NCBI RefSeq assembly: GCF_963668385.1
Contig: NZ_OY764327.1
Span: 620,001-684,000, forward strand
Source: an uncultured Carboxylicivirga sp.
GTDB taxonomy: Bacteria > Bacteroidota > Bacteroidia > Bacteroidales > Marinilabiliaceae
Direction: 5' to 3'
Length of the DNA stretch: 64,000 bases
In this document: piece by piece, positions 46,396 to 52,649 of the stretch
Position numbering within the stretch: position 1 is the first letter of the stretch
Layout of the letters: each line of letters starts with the position of its first letter
Notes under the pieces: model-generated
The model's input: only the letters and a program-made list of their open reading frames with translations
The model's database searches: none
Told to the model about the DNA's origin: nothing
Program-made: the position numbers and the translations under genes

Positions 46396-46440
46396 ATTAG
46401 CTATCAACCAGCAGCCAATAGCTAATAGCTATTTTTTTTA
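46396..46440 (+). terminator. Terminator of the secreted-domain gene, with an alternative hairpin
   Basis: aatagct (46417-46423) pairs with agctatt (46427-46433) before a T8 run on the plus strand. The left arm can instead pair with attagctat at 46396-46404 (9 bp with 46418-46426), so the two hairpins exclude each other. It also lies at the end of the convergent hisB gene. Confidence 0.65.
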
Positions 46441-47571
46441 CAACATCCCTTTGGTACTGGGTAGTTGATCGTTATATGGATCTTTACGAATGGCTGCCCT
46501 GATGGCACGTGCCAGTGCTTTAAAAATACCTTCTATCTTATGATGCTCGTTGCCACCTTCGGCCTTTATATTAAGGTTGCAGGCTGCCGCATCGGAAAAA
46601 CTCTTAAAGAAATGATGGAACATCTCGGTAGGAGTATCGCCAATCATCTCGCGCTTAAATTCGGTTTCCCAAACCAACCAGGGTCGTCCACCAAAATCGA
46701 TGGCTACCTGTGCCAGACAATCGTCCATTGGCAGACAGAAACCATAACGCTCAATACCACGCTTATCGCCCAAAGCCTTTTTGAAAGCCTCGCCCAACAC
46801 AATGGCCGTATCTTCCATGGTATGATGTTCGTCGACATGTAAATCGCCCTTTACCTCAACCGTTAAATCACAACCCGAGTGACGACCAATCTGCTCCAAC
46901 ATATGATCGAAGAAATTCAGTCCGGTTGCAATATTGCACTTGCCCGAACCATCCAAATTAACAGCCACCTTGATGCTTGTTTCAGCCGTTGAACGCACTA
47001 CTTCGGCACTTCTTTCTGATTTAAATAAAAAGGCAGCTACCTCATTCCATTGGTCAGTAAGCAAGGCACACACCTCTGTTAACCCAGCTTCGGCCAACAT
47101 CTTATCTCCTGCTTCTTTACCTTGCAGCAAAATGGCTTTACAACCCAGATTCTTGGCCAGTTGCACATCGGTAATTCGATCGCCAATTACAAACGAACCA
47201 TCCAAATCGTAATCACCCTCCATATACTCAGTCAGCATAGCAGTTCCAGGCTTACGCGTAGGAGCATTCTCTTCGGGTAGGGTTGGATCGATATGCACCT
47301 TATCAAAGGTGATTCCTTCCCCCTCTAAAGCCTTCATCATCTTATTTTGAGCCGGCCAAAAGGTATCTTCCGGAAAAGAAGCTGTGCCCAATCCATCCTG
47401 ATTGGTGACCATAGCCAGGTAGAAATCGAGTTGCTGAGCTATCTTTGATAAGTTTTGAAAAACTCCAGGATAAAACTCCAGCTTCTCCAGACTGTCAACC
47501 TGGTAATCAACGGGAGGTTCCACAATAAGGGTACCGTCCCTATCTATAAATAGTATTTTTTTCTTTTGCAT
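46438..47571 (-). CDS. hisB: Bifunctional histidinol-phosphatase / imidazoleglycerol-phosphate dehydratase
   Basis: This 377-residue fusion catalyses two steps of histidine synthesis. The N-terminal HAD phosphatase domain (~1-165) has IDRDGTL (D10, D12). The C-terminal dehydratase (~185-377) has the metal-binding [10 protein letters not shown] and [20 protein letters not shown] motifs and [14 protein letters not shown]. It is the last his gene of this operon; hisH, hisA and hisF do not follow as they often do in this phylum. Confidence 0.96.
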
Positions 47572-47625: not shown

Positions 47626-48522
47626 TTACTTAATAATCTTGGTTTTCAACCACACTTCTAAATACTGAGTCCAATAAGCAACTGGCCTGTCGGCAGCAAA
47701 TCCAAATCCATGACCTCCGGTAGGAAGAATCACTTTAGTAACATCGCCACCTTTTTCAAACAAGTTTTGGGCATATCGGTCTGAGTTTTCAACAGGCACA
47801 GCCCCATCGTTAATGGCATGAACCATTAGGGTAACCGGTGTTTTTTCAGTCACCTGGTTTTCTACCGAGAAATAATCAACCATACTAACGGCTGGATCTT
47901 TACCAATCAAATTCTCACGACTTCCCATGTGTGTGCATGCTTTATCCATGCTAATAACAGGGTACATCAATACCGAAAAATCAGGACGAACCTCTTCTGA
48001 TGTTCTTTTATCATCAACCGGATGAGTAAACAAGGTTGACACAGATGCAGCCAAATGACCACCCGCCGAAAAACCAATTACACCCACTCTGGTAGGATCA
48101 ATATTATATTCTTTGGCTTTGGAACGAACCAGATAAACGGCCTGCTGCGCATCCATCAAAGGCACATAGCTTGAGTTTTCAAACAAATCAGCATCGGGCA
48201 AACGATACTTCAATACAAAAGCCTCGAATCCTAATTTATTAAACCACTCGGCAGCCATGTAGCCCTCGTGATCGATTGCCTCGCGAGCATATCCTCCACC
48301 AGGAATAATAATAATTGCAGGTTTGGCCTCTTTGCTTTTTACCGGGTAATGATAAAGCTGCGGCACAGTAACCCGCGATACCCGGTTATTAACATCCTGC
48401 TCTTCTACTTGTACATCTTTATTAAAAGGTGCTTTACCTTCCCAAAGGTTAATTCTTTCTTTTTGACCGTACATTGTACTTGCAATCAGTAGTAATACAC
48501 TTAATAAGATTTGGATTTTCAT
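47626..48522 (-). CDS. Secreted alpha/beta-hydrolase (carbohydrate-esterase-like) inside the his operon
   Basis: This 298-residue protein has a signal peptide (MKIQILLSVLLLIASTMYGQ). The hydrolase fold has the oxyanion motif IIIIPGGGYA (~72-80) and nucleophile elbow GFSAGG (S152). The acid is probably the Asp in HAINDGAVPVENS and the base the His in TGGHGFGF. It resembles the acetyl-xylan-esterase-like enzymes of polysaccharide-degrading Bacteroidota. It lies 19 bases after hisC and 54 bases before hisB on the same strand, so it should share the his transcript, though an extracellular esterase has no known part in histidine synthesis. Confidence 0.85.
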   Translation of the reverse strand: MKIQILLSVLLLIASTMYGQKERINLWEGKAPFNKDVQVEEQDVNNRVSRVTVPQLYHYPVKSKEAKPAIIIIPGGGYAREAIDHEGYMAAEWFNKLGFEAFVLKYRLPDADLFENSSYVPLMDAQQAVYLVRSKAKEYNIDPTRVGVIGFSAGGHLAASVSTLFTHPVDDKRTSEEVRPDFSVLMYPVISMDKACTHMGSRENLIGKDPAVSMVDYFSVENQVTEKTPVTLMVHAINDGAVPVENSDRYAQNLFEKGGDVTKVILPTGGHGFGFAADRPVAYWTQYLEVWLKTKIIK

Positions 48523-48541: not shown

Positions 48542-49579
48542 TTATTTCTGATAAGATTGTAATGATTTAAGTAATTGTTTATTTTCATCGGATGTACCCA
48601 CAGTAATTCGTAAACAGCCCGCACACAAGGCAACCGATGAGCGATCGCGAATGATGATTTCATCACTCACCAGGTAGTTATACAAACCTTTGGCGTCATC
48701 TACTTTCACCAACAAGTAATTGGCATCTGATGGGTAAATCTTTTGTACAAACGTAAATTGCTGCAAATCATTATTCATTCGGGCTCTTTCTTTCAATAAA
48801 GTTTCGACCCACTGATGTTTATCATCTTCTTTATCCAATAATTCTGAAGCCTTCTCTTGGGTAAGAATATTAATATTATAAGGATATTTAATGCTACTTA
48901 GTACTTTGATGATAGCCTTTGATGCAAAAGCCATCCCCAATCGAATACCTGCCATTCCCCATGCTTTAGAGAAGGTTTGCAATACCAGCAGATTTGGAAA
49001 CTCATTCAATTGTTTCAACAAACTCTTCTCAGGAGCAAAGTCAATATAAGCCTCGTCAAGCACAACTATGCCGTCGAATCCTTTGATAAGCGTTACAATA
49101 TCCTCCTCGTTAAAACAGTTTCCGGTTGGATTATTAGGTGAACAAAGAAAAAGCAGCTTAGAATTGTTATCCGCAGCAGCCAGAAGCGCATTCACATCCA
49201 ACTGAAAATCGTCGGTTAACAGAACTTTACGCACTTCAATATTATTAATGTCTGCAGCCACCTGATACATTCCATAGGTTGGATCGATACTTACCACATT
49301 ATCCTGCCCAGGTTCACAAAATGCACGAAACAATAAATCGATGGGTTCATCACTTCCATTACCCAAAAAGATTTGATCTACCTCAACTCCTTTTATAGGA
49401 GCAATCTTTGCTTTAAGCTTCCGTTGATACGGATCGGGATAACGATTGTAGGGTTGGTTAAATGGGTTTTCGTTGGCATCGAGGTAAACTGATGCCGTTC
49501 CGGTGAATTCATCACGGGCCGAAGAGTAGGGCTTCAGCCCTTTTATATTAGATCTTAAAAGCTCATCAAGCGTTTTCAT
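48542..49579 (-). CDS. hisC: Histidinol-phosphate aminotransferase
   Basis: This 345-residue PLP enzyme (fold type I) has DANENPF and NRYPDP near the N-terminus, SPNNPTGN (~147-154), DEAYIDF (~175-181) and the PLP lysine in TFSKAWGMAGIRLG (K205). It lies 20 bases downstream of hisD. The family order GDC is kept. Confidence 0.96.
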   Translation of the reverse strand: MKTLDELLRSNIKGLKPYSSARDEFTGTASVYLDANENPFNQPYNRYPDPYQRKLKAKIAPIKGVEVDQIFLGNGSDEPIDLLFRAFCEPGQDNVVSIDPTYGMYQVAADINNIEVRKVLLTDDFQLDVNALLAAADNNSKLLFLCSPNNPTGNCFNEEDIVTLIKGFDGIVVLDEAYIDFAPEKSLLKQLNEFPNLLVLQTFSKAWGMAGIRLGMAFASKAIIKVLSSIKYPYNINILTQEKASELLDKEDDKHQWVETLLKERARMNNDLQQFTFVQKIYPSDANYLLVKVDDAKGLYNYLVSDEIIIRDRSSVALCAGCLRITVGTSDENKQLLKSLQSYQK

Positions 49580-49599: not shown

Positions 49600-50892
49600 T
49601 TATTTCGATTCTTTGATTTTTTGAAGCCTTACAGTAACTGCATTTTTGTGTGCATCTAGCTGTTCGGCTGCTGCCATAATTTCAATCGCGGGTCCTAGCT
49701 TCTGAATTCCTTTCTCAGATATTTTCTGATAGGTAATCTTCTTCATAAAACTCTCTGTACTTACCCCGCTATACGATTTGGCATATCCATGTGTAGGCAA
49801 TGTATGGTTGGTTCCCGAAGCGTAATCACCTGCACTCTCAGGCGAATAGTTTCCCAAAAAGACAGATCCGGCATTTCTAACCTTCGAACCTATTTCCTCA
49901 TCATCCCTCATAGAAATAATCAAGTGCTCGGGGGCATAATCGTTGCACATCTCCAGCATTTCATCCACCGACTTTAATACAATCATACGACTGTTGTCCA
50001 ACGCTTTTTCTGCCACTTCTTTTCGCGATAGCTGATTGAGCTGATCAGCCAATGCCTTTTCAACTTTATCCAGTAAGGCTTCGTTGTTGGTTACCAATAT
50101 CACTTGGCTATCTGCACCATGTTCAGCTTGTGATAGAAGATCAGCAGCAATAAAAGCAGGCTCAGCACTTTCATCGGCCATCACCATTACTTCCGACGGA
50201 CCAGCCGGCATATCAATGGCAACATCCTTCAGGCTTACCACTTGCTTGGCTGCTGTCACAAATCGGTTACCCGGACCAAATATCTTAGACACTGAAGGAA
50301 CCGTTTCAGTACCATAAGCCATAGCTCCGATTGCCTGAATACCTCCCAACTTAAATATTTGCGTTACACCAACCAAGTTGGCTACATATAAAATAGCAGG
50401 ATTGATCTTACCATCTTTACCTGCAGGAGAGCATAAAACCACTTCTTTACATCCTGCAATCTTAGCTGGAATAGCCAACATTAAAACCGTTGAAAATAAA
50501 GGTGCCGTTCCGCCAGGTATATACAAACCAACTTTTTCAATCGGCACAGCCTTTTGCCAGCATTGTACACCAGGCATAGTCTCAATCACCTTTACATCGC
50601 GAAGCTGTGCTTTATGAAATGTTTCAATATTTAGCTTAGCTGTTAAGATGGCTTCTTTCAAATCGCTACTTACTTTTAGACAAGCCTCATCAACCTCGGT
50701 CTGCAATACCTTAAACTCTTCTAGATCCACACCATCAAACATTCGGGTGTATTTAATCAAGGCAGCATCTTTGTTTCGCTTTACATCATCCAATACACCA
50801 CGAGCTGTATCAAATAAGTCGTCCAAACCATTATCAGGCCTTTCCAGTAAAGCTGCCCACGACTCTTTTTCAGGATATACTATTTTTTGCAT
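49600..50892 (-). CDS. hisD: Histidinol dehydrogenase
   Basis: This 430-residue zinc enzyme oxidises histidinol to histidine. Motifs: VGLYIPGGTAPLFSTVLMLA, KIFGPGNRFVTAAKQ, DMPAGPSEVMV, the zinc/catalytic SQAEHGADSQV, and ESAGDYASGTNHTLPTHGYA. It lies 17 bases downstream of hisG. Confidence 0.97.
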   Translation of the reverse strand: MQKIVYPEKESWAALLERPDNGLDDLFDTARGVLDDVKRNKDAALIKYTRMFDGVDLEEFKVLQTEVDEACLKVSSDLKEAILTAKLNIETFHKAQLRDVKVIETMPGVQCWQKAVPIEKVGLYIPGGTAPLFSTVLMLAIPAKIAGCKEVVLCSPAGKDGKINPAILYVANLVGVTQIFKLGGIQAIGAMAYGTETVPSVSKIFGPGNRFVTAAKQVVSLKDVAIDMPAGPSEVMVMADESAEPAFIAADLLSQAEHGADSQVILVTNNEALLDKVEKALADQLNQLSRKEVAEKALDNSRMIVLKSVDEMLEMCNDYAPEHLIISMRDDEEIGSKVRNAGSVFLGNYSPESAGDYASGTNHTLPTHGYAKSYSGVSTESFMKKITYQKISEKGIQKLGPAIEIMAAAEQLDAHKNAVTVRLQKIKESK

Positions 50893-50909: not shown

Positions 50910-51770
50910 TTACAGAATCATTTTCTCAATTGGAATCACTAAGATACCTTCAGCACCCAAACTCTTAAGCTGACCAATGATCTCCCAGAATTTCTTTTCC
51001 TGAATCACCGAATGAACCGAGCTCCATCCTTTATCTGCCAATGGCAATACTGTAGGACTTTTCATTCCTGGTAACACATTAACAATCTCATCCACTTTAT
51101 CGTTTGGCACATTCATCAGAATGTATTTGTTCTTACGAGCAGCCATCACCGAATTAATGCGGAAGATAATTTCATCTAACAATTGCTGTTTCTCTGGGCT
51201 TAAATCAGGAGCAGAAACCAATAGTGCTTCAGACTGCATCACTACTTCGACTTCCTTCAAGCGGTTTGCAACCAATGTACTTCCCGAACTTACAATATCG
51301 AAGATACCATCAGCCAAACCTATACCAGGAGCAATCTCTACCGATCCGGCAATCTCGTGAATATTAGCATTGATATTTTTCTCTTTCAGGTATTTCTCTA
51401 GGATAACAGGATAAGAAGTAGCAATCTTTTTTCCTTCGAAGTATTCTGTTCCTGGATACTCATCAGCTTTGGGAATAGCTAAAGACAAACGACATTTGCT
51501 AAACCCTAATCGTTTGGCGATGGTTAGATCGAAGCTTTTCTCAGCCATCTCGTTTTCGCCAACAATACCTATATCGGCAACTGAATCAGCAACTGTTTGC
51601 GGAATATCATCATCTCGCAGATAAAGAACTTCAATTGGAAAATCGGGTGAAGAGGCTACCAATTTACCACCTCCTGAGTTAAACTTAATTCCCGCTTCTT
51701 TTAATAAAGTCATTGAGTCTTCATTCAAACGACCCTTTTTCTGTAATGCAATTCTGATTTTGGTTTCCAT
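50910..51770 (-). CDS. hisG: ATP phosphoribosyltransferase, long form
   Basis: The first and committed enzyme of histidine synthesis. At 286 residues it is the long form: a two-lobe catalytic part (~1-205; VGENEMAEKS, ISIVSSGSTL-like 'DIVSSGSTLVANRL') and a C-terminal ACT-like domain (~215-286, MNVPNDKVDEIVNVLPGMKS, PTVLPLADKGW) that binds histidine for feedback inhibition. No HisZ is needed. It is the first gene after the double leader. Confidence 0.97.
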   Translation of the reverse strand: METKIRIALQKKGRLNEDSMTLLKEAGIKFNSGGGKLVASSPDFPIEVLYLRDDDIPQTVADSVADIGIVGENEMAEKSFDLTIAKRLGFSKCRLSLAIPKADEYPGTEYFEGKKIATSYPVILEKYLKEKNINANIHEIAGSVEIAPGIGLADGIFDIVSSGSTLVANRLKEVEVVMQSEALLVSAPDLSPEKQQLLDEIIFRINSVMAARKNKYILMNVPNDKVDEIVNVLPGMKSPTVLPLADKGWSSVHSVIQEKKFWEIIGQLKSLGAEGILVIPIEKMIL

Positions 51771-51789
51771 TATGGCTATAATTTAATTT

Positions 51790-51827
51790 TTTAAAATAAA
51801 AGGCTTACCCGATAACGGATAAGCCTT
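51790..51827 (-). terminator. Second his attenuator terminator (directly before hisG)
   Basis: On the minus strand aaggcttatcc pairs with gggtaagcctt (11 bp, one wobble), loop gttatc, followed by tttatttt. Its left arm can instead pair with the antiterminator strand at 51856-51864 (GGATAAGTC against GGCTTATCC, 9 bp with one wobble). The hisG start codon lies 20 bases further on. Confidence 0.9.
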
Positions 51828-51858
51828 GTCTCTAATATTTTTATATAAGAATTCCGAC

Positions 51859-51915
51859 TTATCCCTGAGGATTAGCATGCAAATGATGGAATCTATGATG
51901 TTTATTATTATTCAT
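51859..51915 (-). CDS. His leader peptide 2 (18 residues, five His)
   Basis: Reads MNNNKHHRFHHLHANPQG then TAA. Five of 18 residues are His (positions 6, 7, 10, 11, 13). The stop codon lies inside the antiterminator strand (51856-51864), so a ribosome that finishes translation would cover it and let the terminator form. The start codon is only about 6 bases past the T tract of the first terminator, so this leader is reached only by read-through of the first attenuator. Predicted from sequence; translation not shown. Confidence 0.85.
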   Translation of the reverse strand: MNNNKHHRFHHLHANPQG

Positions 51916-51920
51916 GTTTA

Positions 51921-51955
51921 TAAAATAAAAAAGGCTTACCGTTATGGTAAGCCTT
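51921..51955 (-). terminator. First his attenuator terminator
   Basis: On the minus strand aaggcttacc pairs perfectly with ggtaagcctt (10 bp), loop ataac, followed by ttttattttat. The left arm GCTTACC can alternatively pair with GGTAGGC (51992-51998), the strand that overlaps the stop codon of leader peptide 1. Confidence 0.9.
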
Positions 51956-51993
51956 GATAATATTGTTTAAAGTATACATACAACAATCACCGC

Positions 51994-52044
51994 CTACCGG
52001 GTTTGGAGGTTCAAATGATGATAATGATGAATACGATTTGTCAT
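51994..52044 (-). CDS. His leader peptide 1 (16 residues, four His)
   Basis: Reads MTNRIHHYHHLNLQTR then TAG. Four His lie at positions 6, 7, 9 and 10. The stop codon is embedded in the antiterminator strand at 51992-51998. The start codon is about 14 bases after the predicted transcription start, a minimal 5' leader. The layout is that of a classical ribosome-mediated attenuator. Confidence 0.87.
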   Translation of the reverse strand: MTNRIHHYHHLNLQTR

Positions 52045-52064
52045 GTCTTTCAAATAATTTGATA

Positions 52065-52095
52065 CAAAAATAAAGGTTAAAATGACAATTACAAA
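52065..52095 (-). promoter_or_regulatory. Promoter of the his operon (-33 TTTG, -7 TATTTTTG)
   Basis: On the minus strand TTTG (52092-52095) and TATTTTTG (52065-52072) are separated by 19 bases, an exact match to the Bacteroidota consensus. The start would be near 52058. It lies just downstream of the hemerythrin stop codon. Confidence 0.75.
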
Positions 52096-52116
52096 TATTT
52101 ATCCGTTTTTTTCTAT

Positions 52117-52539
52117 TTAGTTATAAGCAAATTGCTGTAGTTTCTCTGCGTTGGCACTCGCAAATTGGGCATATTTCTGGTCTGATATTTTAATATGATT
52201 CACTAACCAATCCTTTAAAAAATTAGTTACCTCCAGAGACAAAATCATTTTACCTTCACTCATCTTTTTATGAAAATTCGTAGCCTTTTCTATGAAAGCT
52301 TCATGTTCTGCCTTATGATCATCGAAATAAGGATAACTAATTCGTTTCATATAGTTTTCTTCCCTCGAAAAATGGGTTTGAGTATACTCCAACAAACCAT
52401 TTATTAATTCTTCAAGTTCAAGTTTAGGCGAATTACTTTGAATACCTTTATAAAAGCTGGTAAGCAGGTTAAAAAGTTTTTTGTGTTCATTATCGATATC
52501 AACATTGTTGACAGATAGATCGTTTGTCCACATGTGCAT
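52117..52539 (-). CDS. Bacteriohemerythrin (non-haem di-iron O2-binding protein)
   Basis: The four-helix domain has the iron-ligand pattern: H in DNEHKKLF, H-x3-E in THFSREENYM, H-x3-H in DDHKAEHEAF, and H ... D in VNHIKISDQKYA. It binds O2 reversibly, for storage, sensing or delivery. The start at 52539 (MHMWTNDLSVNNVDI, 140 residues) is preferred over a TTG at 52560; the ATG at 52533 is also possible and fits the family's 'W-x-DDLSV' opening. It is near cydAB, which also deals with O2, but on its own transcript. Confidence 0.92.
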   Translation of the reverse strand: MHMWTNDLSVNNVDIDNEHKKLFNLLTSFYKGIQSNSPKLELEELINGLLEYTQTHFSREENYMKRISYPYFDDHKAEHEAFIEKATNFHKKMSEGKMILSLEVTNFLKDWLVNHIKISDQKYAQFASANAEKLQQFAYN

Positions 52540-52649
52540 AAAGTTTAGTTCTTTCTTCAAAATTAGAAAATTTTACGCGCTAAACGTTATTTAATTATTA
52601 AATTACTTAATTTCTCATATCTATTAAAAACACTTCTTTATGCGTAAAT

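Follow-up and report, generated by a model that had tools for sequence, protein, structure and literature searches.

Two putative histidine attenuators in series before hisG in Carboxylicivirga and its relatives

The his leader of Escherichia coli and Salmonella, both gamma-proteobacteria, consists of one unit before hisG, with a run of His codons and an antiterminator opposed to an intrinsic terminator. In several other systems, leader elements are placed in series. In Salmonella mgtCBR, a single 5' leader contains two short ORFs in series, each affecting transcription into the gene; they respond to different signals, ATP and proline, and the passages of the source concerned with the leader describe stem-loops unlike intrinsic terminators (PMC3641672). 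The leaders MefAL and MsrDL of mefA-msrD respond to the same signal, a drug, and are referred to as a 'double-lock system' against basal expression in the section of the article that deals with them (PMC10314930). Tandem pseudo-cooperative riboswitches (TPP, c-di-GMP-I) recognize one ligand, and steeper, more 'digital' curves are reported for them in the relevant part of that work (PMC9481103). Tandem T-boxes are presented, in the corresponding excerpt, as complete independent units for one signal in series (PMC12452182). The rimP-leader of several Gammaproteobacteria has a second terminator in tandem, one of the two with a potential antiterminator according to the passage on this leader (PMC2965389). 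In the transcriptome of B. thetaiotaomicron, short ORFs in long 5' UTRs recall leader peptides, and the main text of that study gave no match for hisG or his operon (PMC7366714). In the open-licence full-text literature, no description of a serial leader-peptide pair for the same amino acid was found among the matches listed, in line with an earlier note on this DNA whose author knew of no description of a serial pair in Bacteroidota. No thrZ tandem T-boxes were found in the literature search among the matches listed. A comparative study of the attenuation of amino-acid operons, by Lopatovskaya et al. in 2010, could include Bacteroidota his leaders.

The locus described here lies in a window of 64 kb, which is the whole stretch of DNA that was analysed, in a Carboxylicivirga-like genome of one contig (6,271,090 bases). 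On the minus strand, a promoter is followed by leader 1, terminator 1, leader 2, terminator 2 and hisG. The sequence check found the parts and coordinates given in the earlier note to be right; the strand, which it left unstated, is minus. The note had proposed to compare the his leaders of related genomes, and in this comparison 13 relatives were double as well, so that the arrangement is not an oddity of one genome. For this survey, 80 of 185 named hisG loci were kept, the nearest being that of C. linearis (95%). Of these, 13 are double and 45 single; in 5 a leader was found but no terminator after it, and by the survey rule 17 lack a leader. The double loci (L032, L033, L035-L044 and L046) make up 13 of the 15 nearest, and the other two, L034 and L045, are single. 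The hisG of the 13 relatives is 80-95% identical to that of the window, and these loci together with the window are referred to below as the 14 tandem genomes.

The promoter (52065..52095, minus strand) is of the Bacteroidota type, with a -33 element TTTG at 52095-52092, a 19-nt spacer and a -7 element TATTTTTG at 52072-52065. It was scored against what we take to be the Bacteroidota -33/-7 consensus and matches it at 10/10 scored positions. The same 10/10 promoter with a spacer of 19 is found 20-23 nt 5' of the leader 1 ATG in 14/14 tandem genomes. A -33/-7 element is present in about 1% of mononucleotide-shuffled 500-nt regions. A sigma-70 promoter was rejected, the scan giving 3 matches against 2.6 expected, which is the chance level, and the Bacteroidota -33/-7 type was used instead.

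Both units are encoded on the minus strand and are built alike. Leader peptide 1 (MTNRIHHYHHLNLQTR and a stop codon, 51994..52044) has 4 His codons in 5. The 5' arm of antiterminator 1, GGTAGGC (51992..51998), holds the leader 1 stop codon TAG and pairs with GCTTACC of terminator 1, the helix continuing inward. Intrinsic terminator 1 (51931..51955) consists of AAGGCTTACC-ATAAC-GGTAAGCCTT, then TTTTATTTTA, with a stem of -14.8 kcal/mol. Leader peptide 2 (MNNNKHHRFHHLHANPQG and a stop codon, 51859..51915) has 5 His codons. The 5' arm of antiterminator 2, GGATAAGTC (51856..51864), holds the leader 2 stop codon TAA and pairs with GGCTTATCC of terminator 2. Intrinsic terminator 2 (51800..51827) consists of AAGGCTTATCCGTTATCGGGTAAGCCTT, then TTATTTT, with a stem of -18.1 kcal/mol.

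Such units are scarce in the surrounding DNA. Searched on both strands, the 64-kb window contains two units of a His-rich short ORF and a terminator, which are only these two, and the chance level in 20 first-order Markov sequences is 0.25 per 64 kb. The terminator scan returned 2 terminators in the 501-nt stretch against 0.3 expected. A hairpin pattern derived from these his stems, AAGGCTTRYC-N4..9-GRYRRGCCTT, has three sites in the 6.27-Mb genome: his terminator 1, his terminator 2 and a site before trpE.

The double attenuator is followed by the genes of histidine biosynthesis. The first, hisG (50910..51770, minus strand, with its ATG at 51770), codes for ATP phosphoribosyltransferase (Pfam HisG 163 bits, HisG_C 105 bits). 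The second is hisD, coding for histidinol dehydrogenase (49600..50892, minus strand; Pfam Histidinol_dh 571 bits). The third codes for a hisC-like class I/II aminotransferase (48542..49579, minus strand; Pfam Aminotran_1_2 196 bits), whose position in the operon suggests a role on histidinol-phosphate. Two further genes of the operon were assigned by eye from their translations. The first (47626-48522, minus strand) is alpha/beta-hydrolase-like (esterase-like), has a likely signal peptide and lies between the hisC-like gene and the second, which is bifunctional and hisB-like (46438-47571).

The anatomy of both units is conserved. His-rich leader ORFs and terminators are present in both units of 14/14 tandem genomes, the leader 1 ORF having an ATG, and in each unit the antiterminator core is made of standard pairs. 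The description of the locus in the earlier note, two complete histidine attenuators in series, is thereby supported in all 14 genomes. In the window, the antiterminator hairpins have energies of -15.5 (unit 1) and -16.5 kcal/mol (unit 2) against -14.8 and -18.1 for the terminators. Comparable antiterminator hairpins are found in the relatives. In L038, the ORF of leader 2 passes the antiterminator arm without a stop; its unit 2 hairpin has -2.6 kcal/mol when anchored on the late stop codon and pairs with the arm when this is placed by motif.

With core helix limits chosen on the same 14-genome data, the 7 pairs of the antiterminator 1 core are standard in 98/98 cells and the 9 pairs of the antiterminator 2 core in 126/126. 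Invariant pairs number 4/7 in the first core and 4/9 in the second, where one pair changes on both sides. Altogether, 8 of the 16 core pairs are invariant, 7 vary on one side via G-U and 1 varies on both sides. These counts are mostly conservation rather than covariation. At the tested positions that border the core, pairs are non-standard in 13, 4 and 4 of the 14 genomes for unit 1 and in 12/14 for unit 2. Terminator 1 has undergone pairing-preserving, compensatory changes at stem offsets -2, 4, 5, 6 and 7 among the 14 genomes. Antiterminator 1 fits its own terminator better than genome-shuffled partners, 0/2000 shuffles being as good. Antiterminator 2 has no genome-specific match to its own terminator (0.61 of shuffles at least as good) because it is nearly invariant. 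The mean antiterminator energies are -13.8 and -14.2 kcal/mol for cognate partners vs -9.8 and -10.7 kcal/mol for non-cognate ones.

These data bear on the proposal that one unit regulates the operon and the other is a duplication relic being lost. Unit 2 can be lost, since L034, which is nested among doubles on the hisG tree, has only a unit-1-like copy, and antiterminator 2 offers little variation for testing. Nevertheless, both units keep a His-rich ORF, core pairing and a terminator in 14/14 genomes, and meanwhile the leader residues outside the His runs vary among these genomes. Such conservation is not expected for a dead unit. Because both units are conserved, a relic second unit is unlikely.

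The effect of ribosome position was modelled by folding with a footprint in the 14 genomes, L041 leader 2 being taken from an internal ATG, here as in the hairpin energies, the survey and the residue counts, although a longer ORF exists. With the ribosome at the first His codon, 28/28 units are likely to form the antiterminator. With the ribosome at the last His codon, 25/28 are; this stall blocks the antiterminator in L044 unit 1 and L046 units 1 and 2, where a further single His lies near the stop. With the ribosome at the stop codon, the antiterminator is abolished in 27/28 units, the exception being L038 unit 2. At equilibrium, wherever the ribosome stands, the antiterminator nearly always loses to the completed terminator, and the model therefore needs a kinetic (co-transcriptional) choice. 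Classical attenuators likewise depend on such a choice.

When no ribosome is present, the antiterminator has P>0.5 in 6/14 unit 1 and 9/14 unit 2 copies and is blocked in 13/28 units. In the window, its P is about 1.0 in both units. The antiterminator is thus not reliably blocked without a ribosome, and the protector (1:2) hairpin is therefore weak. A possible protector hairpin of unit 2, ATCC-TCAG-GGAT (51861..51872, minus strand), could mask antiterminator arm 2 and folds weakly at -4.5 kcal/mol. Some relatives, though not all, have a longer form with as many as 7 pairs (CTTATCC..GGATGAG). The folding model thus supports a textbook protector hairpin only partly.

A serial function would require both units to lie on one transcript. 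The region between them was scanned for Bacteroidota -33/-7 and sigma-70 promoters. The earlier note had named a separate start before leader 2 as one case that would speak against a series, and no -33/-7 element of 9/10 or better was found there in 14/14 genomes. Such a start is also the basis of an explanation in which a second promoter between terminator 1 and leader 2 lets the units serve two transcripts. In none of the 14 tandem genomes is there a -33/-7 element of at least 9/10 between leader 1 and hisG, as opposed to the 10/10 element before leader 1, and the further promoter matches in L037, L041, L043 and L046 are likewise 5' of leader 1. The space is narrow as well: the stem of terminator 1 is separated from the ATG of leader 2 by 15 nt only, the ATG lying about 6 nt past the U-rich tract, in agreement with the six or so bases of the earlier note. 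A second promoter is given almost no credence. Transcription from the promoter before leader 1 must pass both terminators. As far as the sequence indicates, two same-signal units follow one another on one transcript with neither gene nor promoter between.

That the signal is the same is suggested by the composition of the leaders. Leaving aside the start Met, His outnumbers every other residue in 27/28 leaders and ties with Phe in the remaining one, L041 leader 1. It accounts for 66/210 residues of leader 1 and 73/239 of leader 2 in the 14 genomes, the next commonest residues reaching 24 and 20. The leaders could also sense different signals, as in mgtCBR, namely histidine and a second input such as the general translation rate or another amino acid. 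The make-up of leader 2 does differ, with Phe and Ile in many relatives, e.g. FHIHHHH. Against the predominance of His in both leaders, a second input appears very improbable.

Upstream of the promoter, a hemerythrin-domain gene identified with Pfam (52117-52560, minus strand) is co-oriented with the his operon. Its 3' end is located about 20 nt before the -33 element, and the terminator scan detected no terminator between it and the his promoter. Transcripts of this gene may run into leader 1, and terminator 1 may double as its 3' end. Terminator 1 could accordingly be kept mainly as an end or insulator for this gene, either with unit 2 as the true attenuator or with two transcripts feeding the operon. 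A hemerythrin homologue lies upstream in 11/14 doubles against 4/28 other named loci examined, counts that are confounded by kinship. However, L035, L038 and L043 are double without a hemerythrin-domain gene, and L059 and L062-L064 are single despite one in their upstream flank. In addition, His codons and a matching antiterminator would be superfluous for a plain terminator. Insulation as the main role of terminator 1 is hence quite unlikely, though as part of the selection it is a real possibility.

The best reading of the locus is that of two ribosome-mediated attenuators in series, both reading charged tRNA-His and forming a same-signal double lock (probability about 0.8). It draws on the parts, their pairing and conservation, the absence of a second promoter match and the ribosome-position logic, all obtained from sequence and computation. 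The transcript would start about 20 nt 5' of leader 1 and meet both attenuators in turn. A ribosome that finishes a leader would sit on the stop codon and cover the antiterminator arm, so that the terminator forms and transcription ends there. If it stalled at the His codons instead, it would free this arm, which would pair with the 5' arm of the terminator before the 3' arm is made and lead to read-through. Transcription of hisG would need the passage of both units, by which leak would be multiplied down and the response to histidine shortage made steeper. This reading predicts actual termination at both hairpins, translation of both leaders, dependence on histidine and a multiplicative output. 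The steeper response or lower leakage that the earlier note had expected from two gates would be a consequence of the same logic.

The two gates of this double lock might also be coupled. When a stalled ribosome opens gate 1, the freed 3' arm of terminator 1, just 5' of leader 2, could capture the 5' arm of terminator 2 and serve as an additional, long-range antiterminator. In that case gate 2 would be open after regulated passage of gate 1 and shut for leaks past a formed terminator 1, so that it would filter leaks and remember what was decided at gate 1. The two arms have a mean pairing energy of -13.4 kcal/mol in the 14 genomes (window -15.6) vs -14.2 for antiterminator 2. The energy was computable in three candidates from other families only, where the match is strong in G040 (-19.3) and G130 (-18.9) and weak in G146 (-8.5); it is weak in L046 as well (-8.3). 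There is no sign of co-evolution, the match within genomes being no better than that between them (0.84 of shuffles at least as good). We regard coupling as an unlikely addition to the double lock.

The occurrence of such units was surveyed beyond the named relatives. The rule applied was permissive (3 His in 9 residues, HH and a terminator-like stem), and some singles and doubles may be spurious or missed. In the order, 119 genomes have a hisG match, and 110 of their loci were covered, own genome included; G011, G017, G047, G056, G128, G154, G174, G210 and G228 were left out. By the rule, 9 of the 110 are double, 72 are single and 29 are neither. By eye, two of the genomes counted as single, G032 and G146, are double, with mismatches in the second terminator; a stricter terminator finder accepted this terminator in G146 and found none in G032. 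Outside the order, 0/67 loci are double and 45/67 are single. These loci come from a phylum sample of 70 of 251 genomes with a match (68 loci, own genome and G165), from which L194 was moved out as belonging to the order. At least one unit of a His leader and a terminator is found before hisG in 58/80 named loci, 81/110 loci of the order and 45/67 outside the order.

Candidate serial His leaders were observed in other families of Bacteroidales (L118, L122, L124, L132, L176, L178, L189, L017, L020 and L027). These ten doubles belong to seven families and have other terminator stems, of the GGCTTGCA, GGTTTGCA and GCCCCGG types. In the 12 of their units that were folded by a generic procedure, the antiterminators gained no support (z +0.6 to -1.5), and in 8/20 units no terminator was accepted by the stricter finder. 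As their antiterminators are unsupported, the ten are considered leader-plus-terminator candidates and not proven double attenuators. Mapped onto a 130-row hisG tree, the double state takes 10 changes, at least 3 of which are forced by well-supported branches. This tree was built quickly and has long branches, some of them joining at doubles (G157, G198 and G214), and the history of hisG may differ from that of the species. Should the candidates prove real, the double state either arose several times or has old origins followed by several losses.

The history of the pair itself can be approached from the single units. Against a profile of 17 single units, L034 included, unit 1 averages 57 bits and unit 2 averages 28 bits. 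The single unit of L034 reaches 90.6 bits when compared with the unit-1 profile but 25.2 bits with that of unit 2. From these scores, unit 1 is most likely the original attenuator and unit 2 a later copy, which L034 would have lost.

Two other amino-acid operons of the genome have single leaders. The trpE leader MNLITLNTGWWHHLLLSTRS, at ~695.8 kb of the genome (L288/L280), has one leader and one terminator by eye. It contains two Trp codons directly followed by two His codons, and the sequence of its terminator stem is the same as in the his attenuators. The ilvD leader MRFNLTLVLDIIIILLVIIN (L282, just upstream) is rich in Ile, Leu and Val and is followed by one terminator-like hairpin, again by eye. 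Doubling is thus not general for trpE and ilvD, the two other operons looked at. At the gathering threshold, Rfam gave 0 matches in the window, in 20 hisG-region loci and in the trpE region, and His_leader is absent from the relaxed Rfam list for 51600-52300. Weak sub-cut-off matches to GibS (33.8 of 115 bits), Phe_leader (27 of 55) and Bacteroid-trp (23.3 of 49) were taken as chance or shared leader features.

The his pair resembles the classical his attenuator in its His-run leader, its antiterminator opposed to a terminator and its place before hisG, and differs from it in having two units rather than one. The single leader-plus-terminator units found before hisG in Bacteroidota in this survey resemble unit 1, and many share a GGCTTACC-type stem, but they have only one unit. 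Bacteroid-trp (RF01692) and, in this genome, the leaders of trp and ilv follow the same plan of a leader peptide and then a terminator, but with one unit each. In the mefA-msrD system, the second leader lies behind the mefA gene. The his leaders, in contrast, stand back to back before a biosynthetic operon. With mgtCBR the pair shares serial leader ORFs, but here both are His-rich and are followed by two intrinsic terminators, unlike the stem-loops in the part of the source on that leader. Tandem terminators are common to the pair and to the rimP-leader, which the passages on it do not present as two amino-acid-sensing leader peptides. The serial one-signal plan is the same as in the accounts of tandem riboswitches and T-boxes that were at hand, with RNA as the sensor there and a ribosome on a leader peptide here. 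By this analogy, the his pair is best read as a putative leader-peptide counterpart of the 'pseudo-cooperative' tandem riboswitches. The novelty that the earlier note had seen in Bacteroidota holds for the serial arrangement, but single His units before hisG are common there and the pair itself occurs in 13 relatives.

The surveys suggest that attenuation by His leaders is common in Bacteroidota, where the scanned loci have no Rfam match. Leader-peptide attenuators are the textbook control of amino-acid operons; as far as we know, those described in series read different signals (mgtCBR) or have a gene between them (mef/msr), and the stacking of riboswitches in series is known to make gene control more switch-like. 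A natural pair for the same signal, possibly with more than one origin in Bacteroidales, could show what a second gate buys in terms of leak, steepness and noise, with single-gate relatives such as L034 as natural controls.
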